Assembly: GCA_902557995.1 (NCBI GenBank)
Contig: CACECL010000008.1
Span: 1-36,822 of the forward strand
Source of the DNA: an uncultured Pelagibacteraceae bacterium
GTDB taxonomy: Bacteria > Pseudomonadota > Alphaproteobacteria > Pelagibacterales > Pelagibacteraceae
Direction: 5' to 3'
DNA length: 36,822 nt
A program made the translations under genes and the position numbers. Below are positions 1 to 31,575 of this stretch, in pieces (within the stretch, counting starts at the first letter, position 1; every line of letters starts with the position of its first letter). Under the pieces are notes generated by a model that had not been told where the DNA came from, made no database searches, and saw only the letters and a program-made list of their open reading frames with translations.

Positions 1-422
1 TAAACATCTACAGGAACAATTCTATCACAACCTCTAACAACTGAATATGAATAATGGTAATATCCACCTCCATTTGCGCAACTGCCCATTGAAATCACAT
101 ATCTTGGTTCAGGCATCTGGTCATAAACTTTTCTTAGAGCTGGCGCCATTTTATTTGTCAAAGTTCCTGCAACTATCATAACGTCTGATTGTCTTGGTGA
201 ACCCCTAGGAGCTGCTCCAAATCTTTCTAAATCATATCTTGGCATAGCTGTTTGCATCATTTCAACAGCACAACAAGCTAATCCAAAAGTCATCCAATGA
301 AGTGATCCTGATCTTGACCAATTAATTAAATTATCAAGTGATGTAGTTATAAAACCATTCTTGCTAAAATCCTCTGCAAGTTGTTTAAATTCCTCAGGAA
401 CTTGATCAATTTTATTATTCAT
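1..422 (-). CDS. nuoB: NADH-quinone oxidoreductase subunit B (3' end outside window)
   Basis: Peripheral-arm subunit of respiratory complex I that carries the terminal Fe-S cluster N2 and passes electrons to quinone. Reading leftwards from the ATG at 422, 140 codons are open to the window edge. Visible family motifs are the tandem cysteines C50-C51 in [10 protein letters not shown] and C115 in [10 protein letters not shown], three of the four N2 ligands. The fourth is expected shortly after the edge, in the PGCPP motif that normally follows PVDVY. The family is usually about 160-185 residues, so roughly the last 30 are missing. Broken nuoA lies 15 bases upstream on the same strand. The strand is the oddity: the other nuo genes run the opposite way from 769. 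Identity is very secure; the genomic orientation may not be. Confidence 0.95.
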
Positions 423-437
423 TGTGATTTATAATTT

Positions 438-768
438 TTATTCCCAGTCTAAAGCACCTTTTTTCCATTCATAAATAAAACCTATTGTAAGTATGAACAA
501 AAAAATCATCATTGATGAAAAACCTAATAATCCAATATTTCCAAGAGATATTGCCCATGGAAATAAATAGAATTGCAACTAAGTAAAATCTCACATCAAA
601 TTCCATCCTTGAATCCTCAAAAGGTTCAAAACCACACTCATAAGCTGAAAGTTTTTCAGGATCAGGTTTTTTTGGTGATAGAATAAAGTTTACAACCACA
701 AAAGCACAACTTAAACCAAGAGCTAATACTAAAAATATTAGAAAAAAGGGATCTTTTATTAGATAATT
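438..768 (-). pseudogene. nuoA: nuoA, disrupted: no start codon and internal frameshifting deletion
   Basis: Small membrane subunit of complex I, about 120 residues with three transmembrane helices when intact. Two reading frames are needed to recover it. From about 768 to 562 the frame reads [20 protein letters not shown], then a VVVNF...[20 protein letters not shown] segment and [12 protein letters not shown], all NuoA-like. From 560 to 438 a different frame reads [10 protein letters not shown] and ends [12 protein letters not shown]-stop, the normal C terminus. Compared with the family, about 29 bases are missing between LFI and PW, removing the IFDxE segment with its conserved acidic residues. 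At the 5' end the frame is open to 777 but has no ATG, GTG or TTG before an internal GTG at 699, so the first few codons and the start are lost where the sequence switches to nuoC. It could be a true pseudogene or an artefact of a chimeric or mis-assembled molecule. Confidence 0.88.
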
Positions 769-771
769 ATG
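763..771. other. Inversion breakpoint between nuoA and nuoC
   Basis: On the minus strand the NuoA-like frame runs up to about position 768. On the plus strand the nuoC start codon is at 769-771. The normal bacterial order is nuoA-nuoB-nuoC on one strand, so sequence from nuoA's 5' end is here fused head to head to nuoC's first codon, with no promoter or ribosome-binding site between. The exact base cannot be fixed without a reference, but it must lie within a few codons of 769, because nuoC is complete and nuoA lacks only its extreme N terminus. Confidence 0.7.
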
Positions 772-1374
772 AAGAGTTTAGAAGATCTAGAAAAAAAAAT
801 TAATTCTGAGTTAACTACCAAAATTAACAATACAGAAATTAAGCATAACCAAATTTATATCGAAACAGATAAAGAAGATATCGTTGATGTTGCTATATTT
901 TTAAAAACAAATCAAGATACAAAATTTAGGCAATTAATAGATATAACAGTTGTTGATTACCCAGAACAAAATCAAAGGTTTGAAGTAGTATACTTATTTT
1001 TAAGTCATGAATTTAATCAAAGATTGATTATAAAATATTCAATTACCGAAAATGAAGTTATTCCATCATTAACTAGCATTTTTCCATCAGCAAATTGGAT
1101 GGAGAGAGAAGTATTTGATATGTACGGAGTATCTTTTAAAGATCACCCTGATTTGAGAAGAATTCTAACTGATTATGGATTTGAAGGCCACCCATTAAGA
1201 AAAGATTTTCCATTAACTGGTCACTCTGAAGTCAGATACAGCGAAGATCAGAAAAAAGTAATTAGTGAACCTGTAAAACTTGAACAAAATTATAGAAATT
1301 TTGATTACGAAAGTCCTTGGGAAGGAACAAAATATATTAAAGAAGAAATTGAGAATAATGACAAAAAAAATTAA
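769..1374 (+). CDS. nuoC: NADH-quinone oxidoreductase subunit C
   Basis: Peripheral-arm subunit of complex I (30-kDa family) without cofactors, packing against NuoD and NuoB. The 201-residue product is of normal length for separate alphaproteobacterial NuoC. The middle carries the family signature: [12 protein letters not shown] near residues 65-75, [10 protein letters not shown], then [28 protein letters not shown] and [10 protein letters not shown] in the second half. The ATG at 769 gives a sensible N terminus but has no Shine-Dalgarno or promoter before it, because the upstream sequence is inverted nuoA. The 3' end overlaps nuoD by 17 bases. Confidence 0.95.
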
Positions 1375-2533
1375 AAATTTAAATTTAAATTTTGGGCCTC
1401 AGCATCCTGCGGCCCATGGTGTTCTCAGATTAATTTTAGAGCTTGATGGAGAAGTGGTTGAGAAGGCAGATCCACATATTGGTTTGCTTCATAGAGGAAC
1501 AGAAAAACTTATAGAAAATAAAACTTATATGCAGGCAGTTCCTTATTTTGATCGTTTAGATTATGTAGCACCAATGAACCAAGAACATGCTTTCGCACTA
1601 GCGATTGAAAAAATACTTAAAATAGATGTACCAATTAGAGCACAATATATAAGAGTTATATTTTGCGAGATTGGAAGAATTTTAAGTCATATTTTAAATG
1701 TTACTACACAAGCCCTTGATGTTGGTGCATTAACACCTTCTCTTTGGGGTTTTGAGGAAAGAGAAACGTTAATGACATTTTACGAAAGAGCTTCAGGATC
1801 TAGGCTCCATGCAAATTATTTTAGAGCAGGAGGTGTTCATCAGGATTTACCAAAAGGTCTAGAAGAAGATATAGCTAAATTTTGTGAAACTTTTCCAAAA
1901 ATAATTAACGACTTAGAAAGTTTACTAACAGATAATAGAATTTTTAAACAAAGAAATGTTGATATTGGAGTAGTCACTAAGGAAGACGCTTTAGATTACT
2001 CTTTTTCAGGAGTTATGATTAGAGGATCAGGTGTTCCGTGGGATTTAAGAAAATCTCAACCTTATGATTGCTATGGAAGTTTAGACTTTAAAATTCCTGT
2101 TGGAAAAAACGGAGATTGTTACGACAGATATTTATGTAGAATTGAAGAAATGAAAGAAAGTGTATCAATTATTAAACAGTGTCTTGCTAAAATGGAAAAA
2201 GGTCCAATTAAATCATTAGATGGAAAGATTAGTCCACCACCTAAGGCAGAAATCAAGCAGTCAATGGAGGCTTTAATACATCATTTCAAACTTTTCACAG
2301 AAGGATATAGAGTTCCAAAAGATGAAATTTATACGGCTGTTGAGGCACCAAAAGGAGAATTTGGTGTTTACTTAATATCTGATGGATCAAGTAAACCTTA
2401 TAAATGTAAAATAAGAGCACCAGGATTTTCACATTTACAATCAATGGATTATCTAATTAAAGGCCATATGTTAGCTGATGTTCCAGCGGTATTAGGTTCT
2501 TTAGATATTGTTTTCGGTGAGGTAGACAGATGA
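1358..2533 (+). CDS. nuoD: NADH-quinone oxidoreductase subunit D
   Basis: The 49-kDa subunit of complex I, forming with NuoB the quinone-reduction chamber. Starting at the ATG at 1358 gives 391 residues with N terminus [20 protein letters not shown]; a more upstream in-frame start would add 26 unlikely residues inside nuoC. The GPQHPAAHG motif is at residues 13-21 and LHRGTEK at 44-50. By comparison with Thermus Nqo4, H20 and Y69 (in RLDYVAPM) are the likely quinone headgroup contacts. The C-terminal [12 protein letters not shown] end is typical. Length is normal and there are no internal defects. The gene overlaps nuoC by 17 bases and nuoE by 4 (ATGA), suggesting coupled translation. Confidence 0.97.
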
Positions 2534-3138
2534 GCTTAAGAAGACCTGCTAAAGATCAACCAGACAGTTTTGAGTTTAATGCTTCATCTTTAGAGGCAGC
2601 AAATAGTATTGTTGCAAAATACCCTGAAGGAAAACAACATAGTGCAGTAATGGCTTTACTTTATATTGCTCAAAGACAAAATAATAATTGGATACCATTA
2701 GCTGCAATGAAGTACATCGCCAAGTTTTTAGATATGCCTTATATTAAAGTTTATGAGGTAGCTACTTTTTATACAATGTATAATTTATCTCCTGTAGGAA
2801 AATACTTTGTTCAAGTATGCACTACAACACCTTGTATGATAAGAGGTGCAAATCAAATAGTTGAGGCTTGTAAGGAAAAAATTTCTGAAAACGAAAGTGA
2901 ATTATCAAATGATAAAAGCTGTTCTTGGATGGAAGTTGAATGTTTGGGAGCATGTGTTAATGCACCAATGATGCAAATTAATGATGATTATTATGAAGAT
3001 TTAGATAAACAAAAAACTTTAGATATTTTAGATAAAATTTTAAATGGAGAAACTCCAAAACCTGGATCATATAGAGGCAGAGTAAATAATGAACCAGAAA
3101 ATAATAGAAAAACCTTAATGGATTTAAAAAATGCTTAA
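2530..3138 (+). CDS. nuoE: NADH-quinone oxidoreductase subunit E (2Fe-2S)
   Basis: The 24-kDa subunit of the NADH dehydrogenase module, carrying the [2Fe-2S] cluster N1a. The 202-residue protein has a helical N-terminal part ([17 protein letters not shown]) and a thioredoxin-like C-terminal half. Its four cluster ligands are visible as C97 and C102 (VCTTTPC) and C138 and C142 (ECLGAC). The ATG lies in the ATGA overlap with the nuoD stop, and the 3' end overlaps nuoF by 8 bases. Length is typical of alphaproteobacterial NuoE, slightly longer than the E. coli protein. Confidence 0.96.
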
Positions 3139-4462
3139 AGATCAAGATAGAATTTTTCAAAATTTATATAATGATAAAGGTTCAGATGTATCTTCATCAC
3201 AAGATAGAGGTGATTGGGTAAATACAAAAGAAATTACTGACAAAGGAAGAGACTGGATAATTAATGAAATTAAAGAATCTCAATTAAGAGGTCGAGGTGG
3301 GGCAGGTTTTCCTACAGGTTTAAAATGGTCATTTGCACCAAAAGAAGTTGGATCTAGACCACATTACTTAGTTATTAACGGTGATGAGTCTGAACCAGGA
3401 ACATGCAAAGATAGAGATATTTTAAGATTTGAGCCTCATAAATTAATAGAAGGTTGTTTAATTGCATCTTATGCAGTGCAAGCACATGTTTGTTATATTT
3501 ATATAAGAGGAGAATATTTTGTTGATGGTCAAAAACTTCAGGCAGCAATAGATGAAGCTTATGAGAAAAAACTCTTAGGTAAAAATGCAGCAGGTACTGG
3601 CTGGGATTTAGATATTTATATTCATTATGGTGCTGGTGCATATATTTGTGGAGAGGAAACAGCTTTATTAGAAAGTATCGAAGGTAAAAAGGGCCAACCT
3701 AGATTAAAACCACCATTCCCTGCTCTAATTGGTCTTTATGGATGTCCAACAATTATTAACAATGTAGAAACTATAGCTGTAGTCCCAACAATTCTTAGAA
3801 GAGGTGGAAAATGGTTTGCTTCTCTTGGAAGAGAAAAGAACACAGGGACAAAAATATTTTGTATATCTGGAAATGTAAATACACCTTGCAATGTTGAGGA
3901 AGAAATGAACATTCCTTTAAAAGAATTAATTGAAGTTCATGCAGGCGGTGTTATTGGAGGTTGGGATAATCTTCAAGCAGTAATTCCTGGTGGTTCATCA
4001 ATGCCACTAATTCCAAAAGAGAAATGTGAAACATTAACTATGGATTTTGACTCACTTATGGCTGAGAAAAGTGGTTTAGGAACCGCAGGTATAGTGGTCA
4101 TTAATAAAGATCAGGACATAATTAAATGCATGGCAAGAATAGCAAGATTTTATAAACATGAAAGCTGTGGTCAATGTACACCTTGTAGAGAAGGCTCTGG
4201 TTGGATGTGGAGAATGCTTGAGAGAATGGCAAAAGGAGATGCAACCAAGGATGAAGTAGATATGCTAGGAGATGTTACAAATCAAATAGCAGGACACACT
4301 ATTTGTGCATTTGGGGAAGGTTCATCTTGGCCGGTTCAAGGATTACTTAGACATTTTAAAAAAGAAATTGAAAAAAGAAATAATTTGGATCCTATTGTTC
4401 AAAAGAAAAACAATATTCCATATTTAGTTGATCAACATTTATTAGAGAAAAAAAATGCTTAA
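3131..4462 (+). CDS. nuoF: NADH-quinone oxidoreductase subunit F (FMN, 4Fe-4S)
   Basis: The 51-kDa subunit that binds NADH and FMN and holds cluster N3, the electron entry point of complex I. The 443-residue product shows the glycine-rich [10 protein letters not shown] motif at 54-63 for NADH/FMN binding, the flavin-site region with [16 protein letters not shown], and the N3 ligands C346, C349, C352 (CGQCTPC) and C392 (TICAFGEG). The start ATG sits inside the last codons of nuoE with an 8-base overlap, and the stop overlaps nuoG by 8 bases. The sequence around both overlaps is the same 14-mer. It acts with NuoE and NuoG on the cytoplasmic side. Confidence 0.97.
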
Positions 4463-26557: not shown

Positions 26558-27198
26558 TAAATAAAGAATTAATAAATAGAGTCTTTAGTTCATTAGCATT
26601 AATACCTATAGCTCTTTTTTTTATAATAAAAGGAGGTATTTTATTTATTTTTTTTATCTCAATCTGTTTTTTAATTGCATCATATGAATGGCATAAGTTG
26701 AGTAAAAAAAAATTATATTATTTTCCAGGGTTTTTATTTTTGATTTTATCTTTTTACTCGACTTATACGATAAGAATGGACGTAAATAGTGGTTTAGAAT
26801 ATTTTCTTATTATTTTATTAATTTGTATTTCTACTGATTTAGGAGGATATATTTTTGGTAAAATTCTTAAAGGTCCTAGGTTAACTAAAATTAGCCCCAA
26901 AAAAACATATTCAGGTGTTGTTGGAGGTTACTTATTATCAATTATTTTTTTGAATTTATTTTTTAATTCTACTTATTATTCAAATACAGTCGTAATGACT
27001 TCTTATTTTATCATCTTTATATTATTAACCTCTACTGTCAGTCAATTAGGTGATATCACTATTTCTTACTTTAAAAGATTGTCAAAAATAAAAGATACAG
27101 GAAAAATCATCCCAGGCCATGGTGGATTATTAGACAGAATAGATGGAATGATTTTTGCTTACCCTTTTTGTTATGTTATTTACTTATACTTTAATTAA
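26554..27198 (+). CDS. cdsA: Phosphatidate cytidylyltransferase
   Basis: Makes CDP-diacylglycerol from phosphatidate and CTP, the branch point of phospholipid synthesis. The 214-residue membrane protein has about six to seven helices and ends with the CDP-DAG synthase signature: YFKRLSKIKDTGKIIPGHGG followed by LLDRIDG. DLGGYIFGKILKGP in the middle is the other conserved part. It is shorter than typical alphaproteobacterial CdsA (about 260-285), apparently lacking an N-terminal helix or two. Start is in the ATGA overlap with uppS; dxr starts on the next base after its stop. Confidence 0.92.
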   Translation: MINKELINRVFSSLALIPIALFFIIKGGILFIFFISICFLIASYEWHKLSKKKLYYFPGFLFLILSFYSTYTIRMDVNSGLEYFLIILLICISTDLGGYIFGKILKGPRLTKISPKKTYSGVVGGYLLSIIFLNLFFNSTYYSNTVVMTSYFIIFILLTSTVSQLGDITISYFKRLSKIKDTGKIIPGHGGLLDRIDGMIFAYPFCYVIYLYFN

Positions 27199-28365
27199 AT
27201 GAAAAAAAAAATTGCAATATTAGGTTCAACTGGTTCAATTGGAAAAACATTATTAAAAATTATTGAAAAAAATAAAAAAAATTTCGATGTGGTATTGCTT
27301 ACGGCTAATACAGATCATAAAACTTTATTAAAACAGGCAAAAAAATTTGATGTTCAAAATCTTATAATTAGCGACTTTAAAAGTTATAAAGTTTTAGAAA
27401 ATAAAATTAAAAAATCAAATGTAAAAATTTTTAATTCTTTCAATTCAATAAATAAAATTCTAAGTAAAAAAATTGATTATGTAATGAGTTCTATAGTAGG
27501 CATACAGGGTTTAGAACCTACCTATAGAATAATAAAATTTACCAAAAATATTGCGATAGCAAATAAGGAATCGATTATTTGTGGATGGGATTTAATCAAT
27601 AACGAATTAAAAAAAAATAAAACTAATTTTATTCCAGTTGACTCAGAGCATTTTTCAATGTGGTACGGTCTATTTAAACTTAATTCTGAAAATATAGAAA
27701 AGATTTTTCTTACAGCATCTGGCGGACCATTTTACAAGTTTCCTCTTAGCAAATTTAAAAAAATTAGTGTTAAAAAAGCTATTAATCACCCAAATTGGAA
27801 AATGGGAAAAAAAATCTCTATAGATTCTGCTACAATGATTAATAAAGTTTATGAGGTTATCGAAGCCAAAAATATTTTCAATATTTCTTACAAAAAAATA
27901 AATATTATTATTCACCCAAAATCATATGTGCATGCAATATTAAAATTTAGCGATGGACTTATAAAGATCATTGCACATGACACCACGATGAAAGTTCCAA
28001 TTTTTAATACACTTTTTTTTAAAACTAATTTGAAATTAAAAACAAATAAATTAGATTTTAAATTACTAAATGACTTAAATTTCCAAAAAATCCATTCAAA
28101 TAGATACCCGATGATTAATATACTTAAATTGTTACCTGAAAATCATTCATTGTATGAAACTGTAGTTGTCTCTGCAAACGATACTCTAGTAAATCTTTTT
28201 TTGGAGAAAAAAATTGGCTTTTTAGACATATACAAAGAATTAATTAAGTTTATTAAATTAAATGAGTATTTAAAATACAAACATATAAAACCTAAAAAAA
28301 TAAATGATATTATTAATTTGAATAAATATGTTACTACAAATATAAAAAAAAAGTATATTGTTTAG
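27199..28365 (+). CDS. dxr: 1-deoxy-D-xylulose 5-phosphate reductoisomerase
   Basis: Second step of the MEP isoprenoid pathway; converts DXP to MEP with NADPH and a divalent metal. In the 388 residues: the NADPH loop GSTGSIG at 9-15, the NKESIICGWDLI region, the metal/substrate motif PVDSEHFSMW, the TASGGPF loop, and NHPNWKMGKKISIDSATMINK (written in part). Length is normal. It supplies the same isoprenoid route used by UppS two genes upstream. A 12-base gap separates it from bamA; the RseP protease gene often found there is absent. Confidence 0.95.
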   Translation: MKKKIAILGSTGSIGKTLLKIIEKNKKNFDVVLLTANTDHKTLLKQAKKFDVQNLIISDFKSYKVLENKIKKSNVKIFNSFNSINKILSKKIDYVMSSIVGIQGLEPTYRIIKFTKNIAIANKESIICGWDLINNELKKNKTNFIPVDSEHFSMWYGLFKLNSENIEKIFLTASGGPFYKFPLSKFKKISVKKAINHPNWKMGKKISIDSATMINKVYEVIEAKNIFNISYKKINIIIHPKSYVHAILKFSDGLIKIIAHDTTMKVPIFNTLFFKTNLKLKTNKLDFKLLNDLNFQKIHSNRYPMINILKLLPENHSLYETVVVSANDTLVNLFLEKKIGFLDIYKELIKFIKLNEYLKYKHIKPKKINDIINLNKYVTTNIKKKYIV

Positions 28366-28377
28366 AAAAATAATATC

Positions 28378-30618
28378 ATGACAAAAACTCTATTTAAAAC
28401 ATTTATTATTTTACTCTTAAGTATTCTATGTATTAAGGCTGAAGAGATTAAAAAAATAGAGGTAATAGGTAACGATAGAATATCCAAAGACACAATAATA
28501 ATGTTCGCAGATATAAATGATCAAGATCTGACTAAAGATGACTTAAATAAAATTTTAAAAAATTTGTATGACTCAAATTTTTTTGAAAATGTAGAAGTAT
28601 CAATTTTAAATTCTTCTTTAACAATTAAAGTTAAAGAACATCCAATAATCGATCAAATTTTCATTGAAGGAATTAAAAATAGTAAATTAAATGATTTAAT
28701 ACTGGATAATATATATTTCAAACCAAGGTACTCTTTTAATAATTTTTTTTTAGAAGAAGATAAAATTAAAATTTCAAATACTTTGAAAAATCTTGGATAT
28801 TATTTCTCCAATGTTGATATTTTTACAGAGACTATTGATGATCAAAATAAAATAAATTTAATTTATAAAATAAATCTTGGTGAAAAAGCTAAAATTAAAA
28901 AAATTTATTTCACAGGTAATAAAGTTTATAAAGATAGTAAATTAAAGTCATTAATTATAAGTGAAGAATATAAACCTTGGAAGTTTATTTCAGGAAAAAA
29001 ATATTTAAATGAAAATACAATTCAATTTGACTTAAAGTTATTAAAAAACTTTTATTTAAATGAAGGCTATTATGATGTCAAAATTAATTCTTCTTTTGCA
29101 AAATTAGTAGACGATAAAAAATTTGAATTAATTTATAACATTAATGCTAATAATAAATTTTTTTTTAATAATATTGAACTGAAATTACCTGATGATTTCT
29201 CTTCTGATAATTTTTCTGAAATCTATGAATTGTTTAACAATTTAAAAGGTAAACCTTACTCAATCAATAGAATTGAAAATATACTTTCTTCTTTAGATAA
29301 AATTAGTACCAATGAACAATTTGAGTCTGTTAAGTCTATTGTTGAGGAAAATATAGTTGAGGATAAAATTGATCTTAAATTTATAATTCAAGAAACAAAA
29401 AAAGTTTTTGTTCAAAAAATTAACATATTTGGAAACAATATAACTAGAGAAAGTGTTTTAAGAAATCAACTTGAAGTAGATGAAGGTGATCCTTATAACG
29501 AAATTTTATTAACTAAATCTATCAATAATCTTAAAAGTTTAAATTTTTTCAAATCAGTAAATTACAATATTCGTGATAGTGAAATATCAGAAGAGAAAAT
29601 AATTGACATTTCAGTAGAAGAAAAAGCTACTGGTGAAATTATGGCAGGTGCTGGTTTTGGTACTGGTGGTAGCAGTATTACAGCAGGAGTAAAAGAAAAT
29701 AATTATTTGGGAAAAGGAATTGCTCTTAACACCAACTTAACAATAACGGATGATACAATACGTGGAATGTTTTCTTTAACAAATCCGAACTATAAAAATA
29801 CTGATAAATCGGTTTACACATCTATAGAGTCATCTGAAATTGATAAATTATCTGATTCTGGATATAAAACCAATAAAACAGGCGCATCATTTGGAACTAA
29901 GTTTGAATTATATGATGATTTTGATTTAGGTTTAGGCATGAATTCATTCTATGAAAAAATTGATACTCATAGTAGTGCCTCTGCTTTACAAAAAAAGCAA
30001 AAAGGAAATTATTTTGATAATTTTTTAAATTTAGAATTAGATTATGACAAAAGAGATCAAAAATTCCAAACTTCAGAAGGATTTAGAAGTTTTTATGGTA
30101 CAAACATACCTTTAATAAGTGACTCAAATACATTTACAAACCTTTTTACTTTCACAAGATATAATAAATTTCTTGACAAAAATGTATTTAAATCCTCTTT
30201 TTATTTTAAAAGCTCAAATAGTATAACTGGTGAAAATATAAAATTATCTGAAAGGATTACTATACCGTCTAAAAGGTTAAGAGGTTTTGAATTTGGAAAA
30301 GTAGGGCCTAAAGATGGCAATGATTATATTGGTGGCAATTTTGTTTCTGCAGCAAATTTTTCATCTTCTCTTCCGCAAATATTTGAAAATTCACAGACAA
30401 CTGATTTTTCATTATTTTTAGATATAGCAAATATATGGGGTGTTGATTACGATTCAACTATTGATAGTAAGTCTCAAGATATAAGAAGCTCAATAGGAAT
30501 TAGTTTAGATTGGTTTAGTGCCGTTGGTCCTTTGAGCTTTTCTCTATCTCAACCAATTACCAAGTCTTCGACCGACAAAACTCAATCATTCAGATTTAAT
30601 CTTGGTACCACGTTTTGA
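28378..30618 (+). CDS. bamA: Outer membrane protein assembly factor BamA
   Basis: Core of the Bam machine that folds beta-barrel proteins into the outer membrane. The 746-residue precursor starts with a signal peptide (MTKTLFKTFIILLLSILCIKA, likely cut before EEI). About 400 residues of repeated POTRA domains follow; each has an IxxIxxxGN strand such as KIYFTGNKVYKD and VQKINIFGNNITRE. The C-terminal barrel has the conserved LRGF motif at 634-637 in RLRGFEFGKVGP and ends with a terminal aromatic-containing strand FRFNLGTTF. Its stop overlaps the next ATG by one base (TGATG). Confidence 0.95.
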   Translation: MTKTLFKTFIILLLSILCIKAEEIKKIEVIGNDRISKDTIIMFADINDQDLTKDDLNKILKNLYDSNFFENVEVSILNSSLTIKVKEHPIIDQIFIEGIKNSKLNDLILDNIYFKPRYSFNNFFLEEDKIKISNTLKNLGYYFSNVDIFTETIDDQNKINLIYKINLGEKAKIKKIYFTGNKVYKDSKLKSLIISEEYKPWKFISGKKYLNENTIQFDLKLLKNFYLNEGYYDVKINSSFAKLVDDKKFELIYNINANNKFFFNNIELKLPDDFSSDNFSEIYELFNNLKGKPYSINRIENILSSLDKISTNEQFESVKSIVEENIVEDKIDLKFIIQETKKVFVQKINIFGNNITRESVLRNQLEVDEGDPYNEILLTKSINNLKSLNFFKSVNYNIRDSEISEEKIIDISVEEKATGEIMAGAGFGTGGSSITAGVKENNYLGKGIALNTNLTITDDTIRGMFSLTNPNYKNTDKSVYTSIESSEIDKLSDSGYKTNKTGASFGTKFELYDDFDLGLGMNSFYEKIDTHSSASALQKKQKGNYFDNFLNLELDYDKRDQKFQTSEGFRSFYGTNIPLISDSNTFTNLFTFTRYNKFLDKNVFKSSFYFKSSNSITGENIKLSERITIPSKRLRGFEFGKVGPKDGNDYIGGNFVSAANFSSSLPQIFENSQTTDFSLFLDIANIWGVDYDSTIDSKSQDIRSSIGISLDWFSAVGPLSFSLSQPITKSSTDKTQSFRFNLGTTF

Positions 30619-31127
30619 TGTTTTATTTTAAAAAATTAATTTTTTACTTTTTTTTATTTCTGTATGTTTCAAGTGCTCAATCAGCAGAAAAAATTGTTTA
30701 TTTAGATATCGATCAAGTTCTTAACACAACTATATCTGGAAAGAAAATTATCGATAATCTTGAAAACATAAGAAAAGAAAACTTGAAAAACATAAAAAAT
30801 AAACAATTTGCTTTAAATACAAAAAAAGAAAAAATAGAAAAGCAAAAAAATGTACTTTCAGAGGAAGAATTTAAAAACCAGATAATATTGCTTGAAAATG
30901 AAATTAGAGGATTTAACGAATATAGTAAAAAAATCTCTATTGAATTTGATAAAAAAAAGCAAAATGAATTAGATGAATTTATGAAATTTATTTCACCAAT
31001 TATCGAAAATTATATTAGAGAAAAATCTATAACTATAGTTTTGAATAAAAAAAATATATTTATTGCTAGTAAGGAATATGACATAACAAGCGATATAATT
31101 AATATTGTAGATAAAAATGAACGATAA
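30618..31127 (+). CDS. skp: OmpH/Skp-family periplasmic chaperone
   Basis: Likely periplasmic holdase that escorts unfolded outer-membrane proteins to BamA. Using the ATG at 30618 (overlapping the bamA stop as TGATG) the product has 169 residues. It has a signal peptide (MFYFKKLIFYFFLFLYVSSAQSA, written in part: hydrophobic core 9-18, cut near residue 22), the IVYLDIDQVLNTT strand typical of OmpH proteins, a lysine/glutamate-rich coiled coil from about 40 to 125, and a closing strand (SITIVLNKKNIFIAS). Sequence identity in this family is always low; position after bamA and the fold pattern make the call. Overlaps fabZ by 11 bases. Confidence 0.85.
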   Translation: MFYFKKLIFYFFLFLYVSSAQSAEKIVYLDIDQVLNTTISGKKIIDNLENIRKENLKNIKNKQFALNTKKEKIEKQKNVLSEEEFKNQIILLENEIRGFNEYSKKISIEFDKKKQNELDEFMKFISPIIENYIREKSITIVLNKKNIFIASKEYDITSDIINIVDKNER

Positions 31128-31575
31128 AAAATTAAAACTAAGTAAAAATGATATAATAAATTTATTGCCACATAGAGATCCAATGTTATTGATTGATGAA
31201 CTTTATGATATAAAAAACCTTCAGTCAGCAACTGCCGTTGTAAATGTAAAAAAATCAAGTTTTTTTGTGCAGGGACATTTTCCAGATCAGCCAGTTATGC
31301 CTGGTGTTCTAATAGTAGAGTCATTTGGTCAAGCTGCTGCTGCATTAACCGCCCATGGTCTTGATAAATCTACATATCAAGATAAATTAGTTTTTTTAAT
31401 GGGCGTTGAAAAAGCGCGATTTAGAAATCCAGTAATACCTGATTGTAAATTGATACTTAAAATCGAGGCTATCAGATCACACGGTCGTGTATGGAAATAT
31501 AAAGGCGAAGCCTTTGTCGATAATAAAAAAATGGCAGATGCTATTTGGTCTGCAACAATAGTAGACAAGAAATAA
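31117..31575 (+). CDS. fabZ: 3-hydroxyacyl-[acyl-carrier-protein] dehydratase FabZ
   Basis: Dehydrates 3-hydroxyacyl-ACP in type II fatty-acid synthesis and competes with LpxA/LpxD for hydroxyacyl-ACP. The 152-residue hot-dog protein has PHRDPMLLID at 18-27, the catalytic GHFPDQPVMPG with H54, and E68 in VLIVESFGQA; these two positions have the same numbering as in E. coli. It lies between skp and lpxD, whereas in many proteobacteria lpxD comes first. A 51-base gap containing a hairpin follows. Confidence 0.96.
   Translation: MNDKKLKLSKNDIINLLPHRDPMLLIDELYDIKNLQSATAVVNVKKSSFFVQGHFPDQPVMPGVLIVESFGQAAAALTAHGLDKSTYQDKLVFLMGVEKARFRNPVIPDCKLILKIEAIRSHGRVWKYKGEAFVDNKKMADAIWSATIVDKK

Follow-up and report, generated by a model that had tools for sequence, protein, structure and literature searches.

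The flipped start of a nuo operon in an uncultured Pelagibacteraceae bacterium is very probably an inverted chimera of single-cell amplification

The inverted beginning of the nuo operon in this Pelagibacteraceae assembly is, judging from the sequence, very probably an inverted chimera that was formed during phi29 amplification of a single SAR11-type cell and kept at a contig end. The DNA analyzed here, hereafter the window, is the entire contig C8 (36,822 nucleotides) of assembly G000, which comprises 987,346 bases in 43 contigs and is 77.41% complete and 0.02% contaminated. An earlier sequence-only reading of this DNA had preferred an inverted chimera from multiple-displacement amplification (MDA), or a mis-assembly, as the explanation. 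This preference is supported by the position of the block in the last 740 bp of the contig, the breakage of both nuoB and nuoA in mid-gene, the microhomology at the join, the distance of less than 1 kb between the joined sites, and the occurrence of the join in no other genome searched. The inversion would then be an artefact and, as far as can be told, the inverted arrangement does not belong to the biology of the organism.

On the minus strand, nuoB and nuoA occupy the first 740 bases of the window, and nuoC and further nuo genes follow on the plus strand from position 769. The nuoB gene, which runs off the contig start, and two separate NuoA pieces thus lie head to head with nuoC (Table 1). 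A comparison of ten window ORFs with NCBIfam gave NuoC, D, E, F, G, H, I, M, and N on the plus strand, with NuoB as the tenth. The inverted order described by the sequence-only reading is therefore borne out by the ORFs and by the tblastn, PF00507 and NCBIfam matches. In an alignment to the nuo locus of the same-genus relative G022 (locus L033), window positions 1-740 match 2352-1584 in reverse orientation, and the sequence from 731 onward matches forward from 2411. The far end of the inverted block (2352) and the point where the collinear block begins (2411) thus lie only 58 bp apart, and the same is seen in the relative G012. The G012 genome, which is a single contig of 1,343,202 bases, shows the same two-block pattern, with window positions 731-36822 collinear except for poorly conserved or unaligned stretches. 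This indicates one displaced block within the window, right at the left edge of the contig. The weakest stretch in the comparison with G012 is 26816-31142, with 65.6% identity over 26816-29915 and no alignment over 29916-31142; both of its flanks are collinear.

Table 1. Features at the left end of the window (positions are those of the window)
Feature	Position	Strand	Evidence
Inverted nuoB fragment (residues 1-140 of 171), truncated at the contig start	1..422	-	tblastn with the intact G022 NuoB: 422..3, 99%; NF005012 NuoB, E 1.8e-64
nuoA 3' part, residues 80-122 and stop, inverted	438..569	-	tblastn (569-441); PF00507 positions 57-99 at 444-572
29-bp deletion scar in nuoA at a 6-bp direct repeat (TTTATT, nuoA strand)	562..567	-	29-bp insertion in L033 at this point
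nuoA 5' part from codon 13, inverted; codons 1-12 missing	562..740	-	tblastn residues 13-72 at 741..562; PF00507 positions 2-51 at 559-708
Probable chimeric junction; microhomology of 4 nt (ATTA) within 731-740, where 9 of 10 positions match	737..740		Alignment to G022; flanks of 14 relatives
Native nuoB 3' end (IRKKGSFIR and stop), in place before nuoC	737..766	+	Translation of 731-768 against the C-terminus of G022 NuoB
nuoC, intact, in native context with downstream genes	769..1374	+	NF004733 NuoC, E 2.4e-81; window 731-36822 collinear with G012

The nuoB gene is cut in two. The minus strand (3-422) encodes residues 1-140, whereas the plus strand has the last nine codons and the stop just ahead of the nuoC ATG; the contig lacks residues 141-162. 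The sequence-only reading had placed the junction at 763-771, which is wrong: these positions hold the nuoB stop and the nuoC start, and the join lies at about 737-740, since the plus-strand sequence 737-766 is the native C-terminus of nuoB. Its statement that the NuoA-like frame reaches the junction without a usable start codon holds as far as the missing start is concerned, whereas the part of that frame at 741-768 is merely the reverse complement of the nuoB tail. Likewise, a promoter or ribosome-binding site is indeed absent before nuoC, but this carries no weight as an argument, because the native layout is the same: only 2 nt separate the nuoB stop from the nuoC ATG, here as in G022.

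At the join, the nuoA side (AAAAATATTA) and the nuoB side (AAAAAAATTAG) have ATTA in common; this microhomology is read from the flanks of relatives, the native flanks of this cell being absent from the assembly. Among 50,000 random inverted joins drawn in the A/T-rich G022 region, 3.3% had an exact match of 4 nt or longer, and the microhomology alone is modest evidence for a chimera. The two breakpoints are approximately 830 bp apart in G022 (L033 1587 and 2417).

The inverted nuoA is further damaged by the 29-bp deletion, which shifts the reading frame, so that the two tblastn pieces lie in different frames, and removes residues 73-79, including the FDLE motif, which we take to be conserved in NuoA. 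The longest end repeat possible for any 29-bp deletion in the G022 nuoA is 6 bp, which occurs at 7 of 289 start positions; a single 6-bp repeat accounts for seven such positions. The deletion was looked for in 85 loci (the 80 named relatives described below and five others), of which 81 gave alignments covering nuoA, while L047, L096, L098, and L102 do not reach this gene. A single 29-base gap at window positions 561-565 was found in 77 of the 81 alignments; in the remaining four, a gap of 21 or 25 bases at 565-569 was accompanied by further split-off gaps, for a total of 29 bases or more. None of the 81 loci covering nuoA has the deletion. This deletion probably arose as another error of amplification or assembly within this stretch close to the contig end.

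The sequence-only reading had proposed a comparison with the nuo operons of cultured SAR11 genomes. A comparison with the relatives described below gave nuoA-nuoB-nuoC as the native order, with the inverted order in none. The named relatives are the best 80 of 567 loci encoding a relative of NuoC. In all 80 of these, nuoB immediately precedes nuoC, both on one strand; 76 of them show a full-length, collinear nuoA, and the contig stops before this gene in the other four (L047, L096, L098, and L102), so that all 76 loci with nuoA have the native order. DNA identity to the nearest of these best 80 loci reaches 93.4% for window positions 1-740 and 95.5% for 731-3500. A second set of relatives, which may overlap with the named set, gave a match in 54 of 61 genomes (G000 included), with short and weak matches in some (G010, G011, G016, G020, and G026). 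Within it, nuoA, nuoB, and nuoC are visible in 26 of the 29 loci L004-L032 and are collinear in all 26; L027, L029, and L030 end inside nuoC or nuoB and are uninformative on gene order.

The junction itself was searched for as a pattern with up to three mismatches. None of the 398 other genomes of this genus contains it, G000 being the only one of the 399 searched that does; the power of this search is limited, as a join built from the native halves falls within three mismatches in 33 of 76 named relatives. In addition, none of the 80 named loci, including 16 with a contig end in the stretch compared, has an inverted stretch of at least 60 nt relative to three reference loci of 4.5-6.6 kb, which suggests that such inverted ends are uncommon at this locus and is a point against an amplification chimera.

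As the sequence-only reading had suggested, we also searched the rest of the assembly for another nuoA or nuoB, and none was found in this 77%-complete assembly. PF00507 matched only the two nuoA pieces of the window across the G000 contigs, and the NuoB search matched only the inverted piece; at 77% completeness, a second copy of either gene may have been missed. Nothing in G000 convincingly matches the sequence that precedes nuoA in G022. We considered whether another contig carries this true upstream flank: besides the two matches in the window, three matches of 48-76 bp at 75-79% identity were obtained on C4 and C16. The one on C4 falls on the tRNA-Val gene of G022, and the other weak matches were taken as chance. 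In G022, nuoA is preceded by tRNA-Val (TAC) and tRNA-Asp (GTC) genes (L033 1295-1459), a stretch that was not found in G000. The true left flank thus seems to be missing from the assembly. An overlap of the window with other contig ends was likewise rejected, since a search of 56 of the 84 ends, from 40 contigs, gave just two matches of 45-50 bp at 82-84% identity. A long inverted repeat within window positions 1-2400 was also rejected, as the three inverted pairs detected there include none longer than 20 nt.

These features can be accommodated by a template switch during amplification. Leftward copying through nuoC would have produced a strand ending in the 3' part of nuoB. Once displaced, this strand could have paired by its 3' end (..CTAAT), through TAAT, with a nearby displaced strand bearing the nuoA start, about 830 bp away. 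Extension of the paired 3' end would then have run back the other way, across nuoA and nuoB. The contig stops near the point at which continuing would have re-entered nuoC and produced a palindrome. The chimeric path may have been retained because the assembly apparently has no authentic sequence ahead of nuoA. What is inferred is that a single cell was amplified, that the template was switched, and that this particular cell had the native order; in the living cell the order is presumably the ordinary nuoA-nuoB-nuoC.

A single-cell origin agrees with the names of the relatives. Among the best 80 of 567 named loci, 79 belong to genomes with single-cell-style names (AG-, AH-, SCGC, SAG), of which AG- and AH- presumably denote single-cell plates; the remaining one, L106, is from a metagenome bin, and some of the records are labelled MAG. 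The available text of one single-cell protocol describes assembly with SPAdes in its --sc mode, trimming of 100 bp from each contig end, and retention of contigs longer than 2000 bp (PMC5519541). The shortest G000 contig is 2289 bp (C41, with C42-C43 left out), compared with the 2000-bp minimum of that protocol. Supposing that 100 bp were trimmed here, the untrimmed end would lie about 36 bp inside the repeated stretch, which fits a stop at the palindrome only loosely.

Other explanations have to be weighed against the amplification chimera. In a pure assembly error, two real ends would have been joined without any chimeric molecule. The location of the join at a contig end and in A/T-rich sequence would fit such an error, but the two sides have an exact sequence of just 4 nt in common (9 of 10 with one mismatch), which is far shorter than usual assembly overlaps. 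SPAdes uses word sizes of 21-55. With so short an overlap, a bridging read was probably needed, and hence a chimeric molecule, and we regard a pure assembly error as very unlikely. A functional divergent arrangement of nuoBA and nuoC-N has the strand order alone in its favor. It is next to impossible given that nuoA lacks its 12 N-terminal codons, is frameshifted, and has lost FDLE, and that nuoB is split; a working divergent operon was accordingly rejected on its broken reading frames.

It is extremely unlikely that about 0.8 kb were truly inverted in place in this cell or strain, at the cost of nuoA and nuoB function. The block abuts its native position, as a true inversion would, and the second breakpoint would lie just past the contig end. 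Only one of the two breakpoints of a true inversion is present in the assembly, and the upstream flank was not found in G000. Such an event would cut nuoA and nuoB, yet the downstream nuo genes that were scanned are intact and the sequence from 731 onward is collinear with G012. It is also disfavored by the lack of any other nuoA or nuoB match in the 77%-complete assembly and of the junction in the 398 other genomes within three mismatches, a search of limited power. None of the relatives' loci examined shares the inversion, and no other intact copy that would offset it was found in this 77%-complete assembly. Had this cell, or the lineage immediately behind it, really undergone a 0.8-kb inversion that inactivated nuoA and nuoB, it would have been a complex I-null SAR11 cell, an outcome that we consider hardly credible.

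With the amplification chimera as the preferred explanation, a gene-based annotation of contig C8 would call nuoA and nuoB broken or divergently transcribed, and the relatives give no support to such calls. Near the ends of single-cell contigs, calls of gene order and of pseudogenes should therefore not be taken as biology without the reads. In the available text of a 2024 study of marine single-cell genomes and metagenome bins, chimerism refers to contamination by DNA of other organisms (PMC11247762). A self-inversion like that of C8 would presumably escape a chimerism test of this contamination type, as it is described there.

The arrangement resembles the inverted chimeras known from MDA. 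According to the available text of a study of MDA from a single E. coli cell, 406 of 475 chimeras were inverted, and 337 of these 406 joined segments less than 10 kb apart, with complementary bases at 93.5% of the inverted joins below 10 kb (Lasken and Stockwell, 2007; PMC1855051). As in those chimeras, two segments are joined in opposite orientation here (window 1-740 on the minus strand and 731 onward on the plus strand, relative to G022 and G012), and their native distance is less than 10 kb (about 830 bp in G022). With 2-21 nt taken as the complementarity expected at such joins, the 4 nt of exact ATTA match inferred here from the flanks of relatives falls in this range. The join is also absent from the other genomes of the group (0 of 398, with a pattern that reaches 33 of 76 named relatives), and the DNA most likely comes from a single amplified cell. 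Unlike those chimeras, which were seen in reads, this one stands in a finished contig, and it has a separate 29-bp direct deletion nearby. Close-range direct joins were rare in the same E. coli data, as given in the available text (11 of 475 chimeras below 10 kb; PMC1855051), so the nuoA deletion is poorly explained by the same mechanism. Deletions were slightly more common in reads of a modified amplification method than in those of standard MDA, as stated in the available text of its description (PMC5519541). Compared with the complex I operon of the Pelagibacterales (nuoA-nuoB-nuoC), the window contains the same genes and is collinear from 731 onward, whereas nuoA and most of nuoB are flipped, truncated, and frameshifted.
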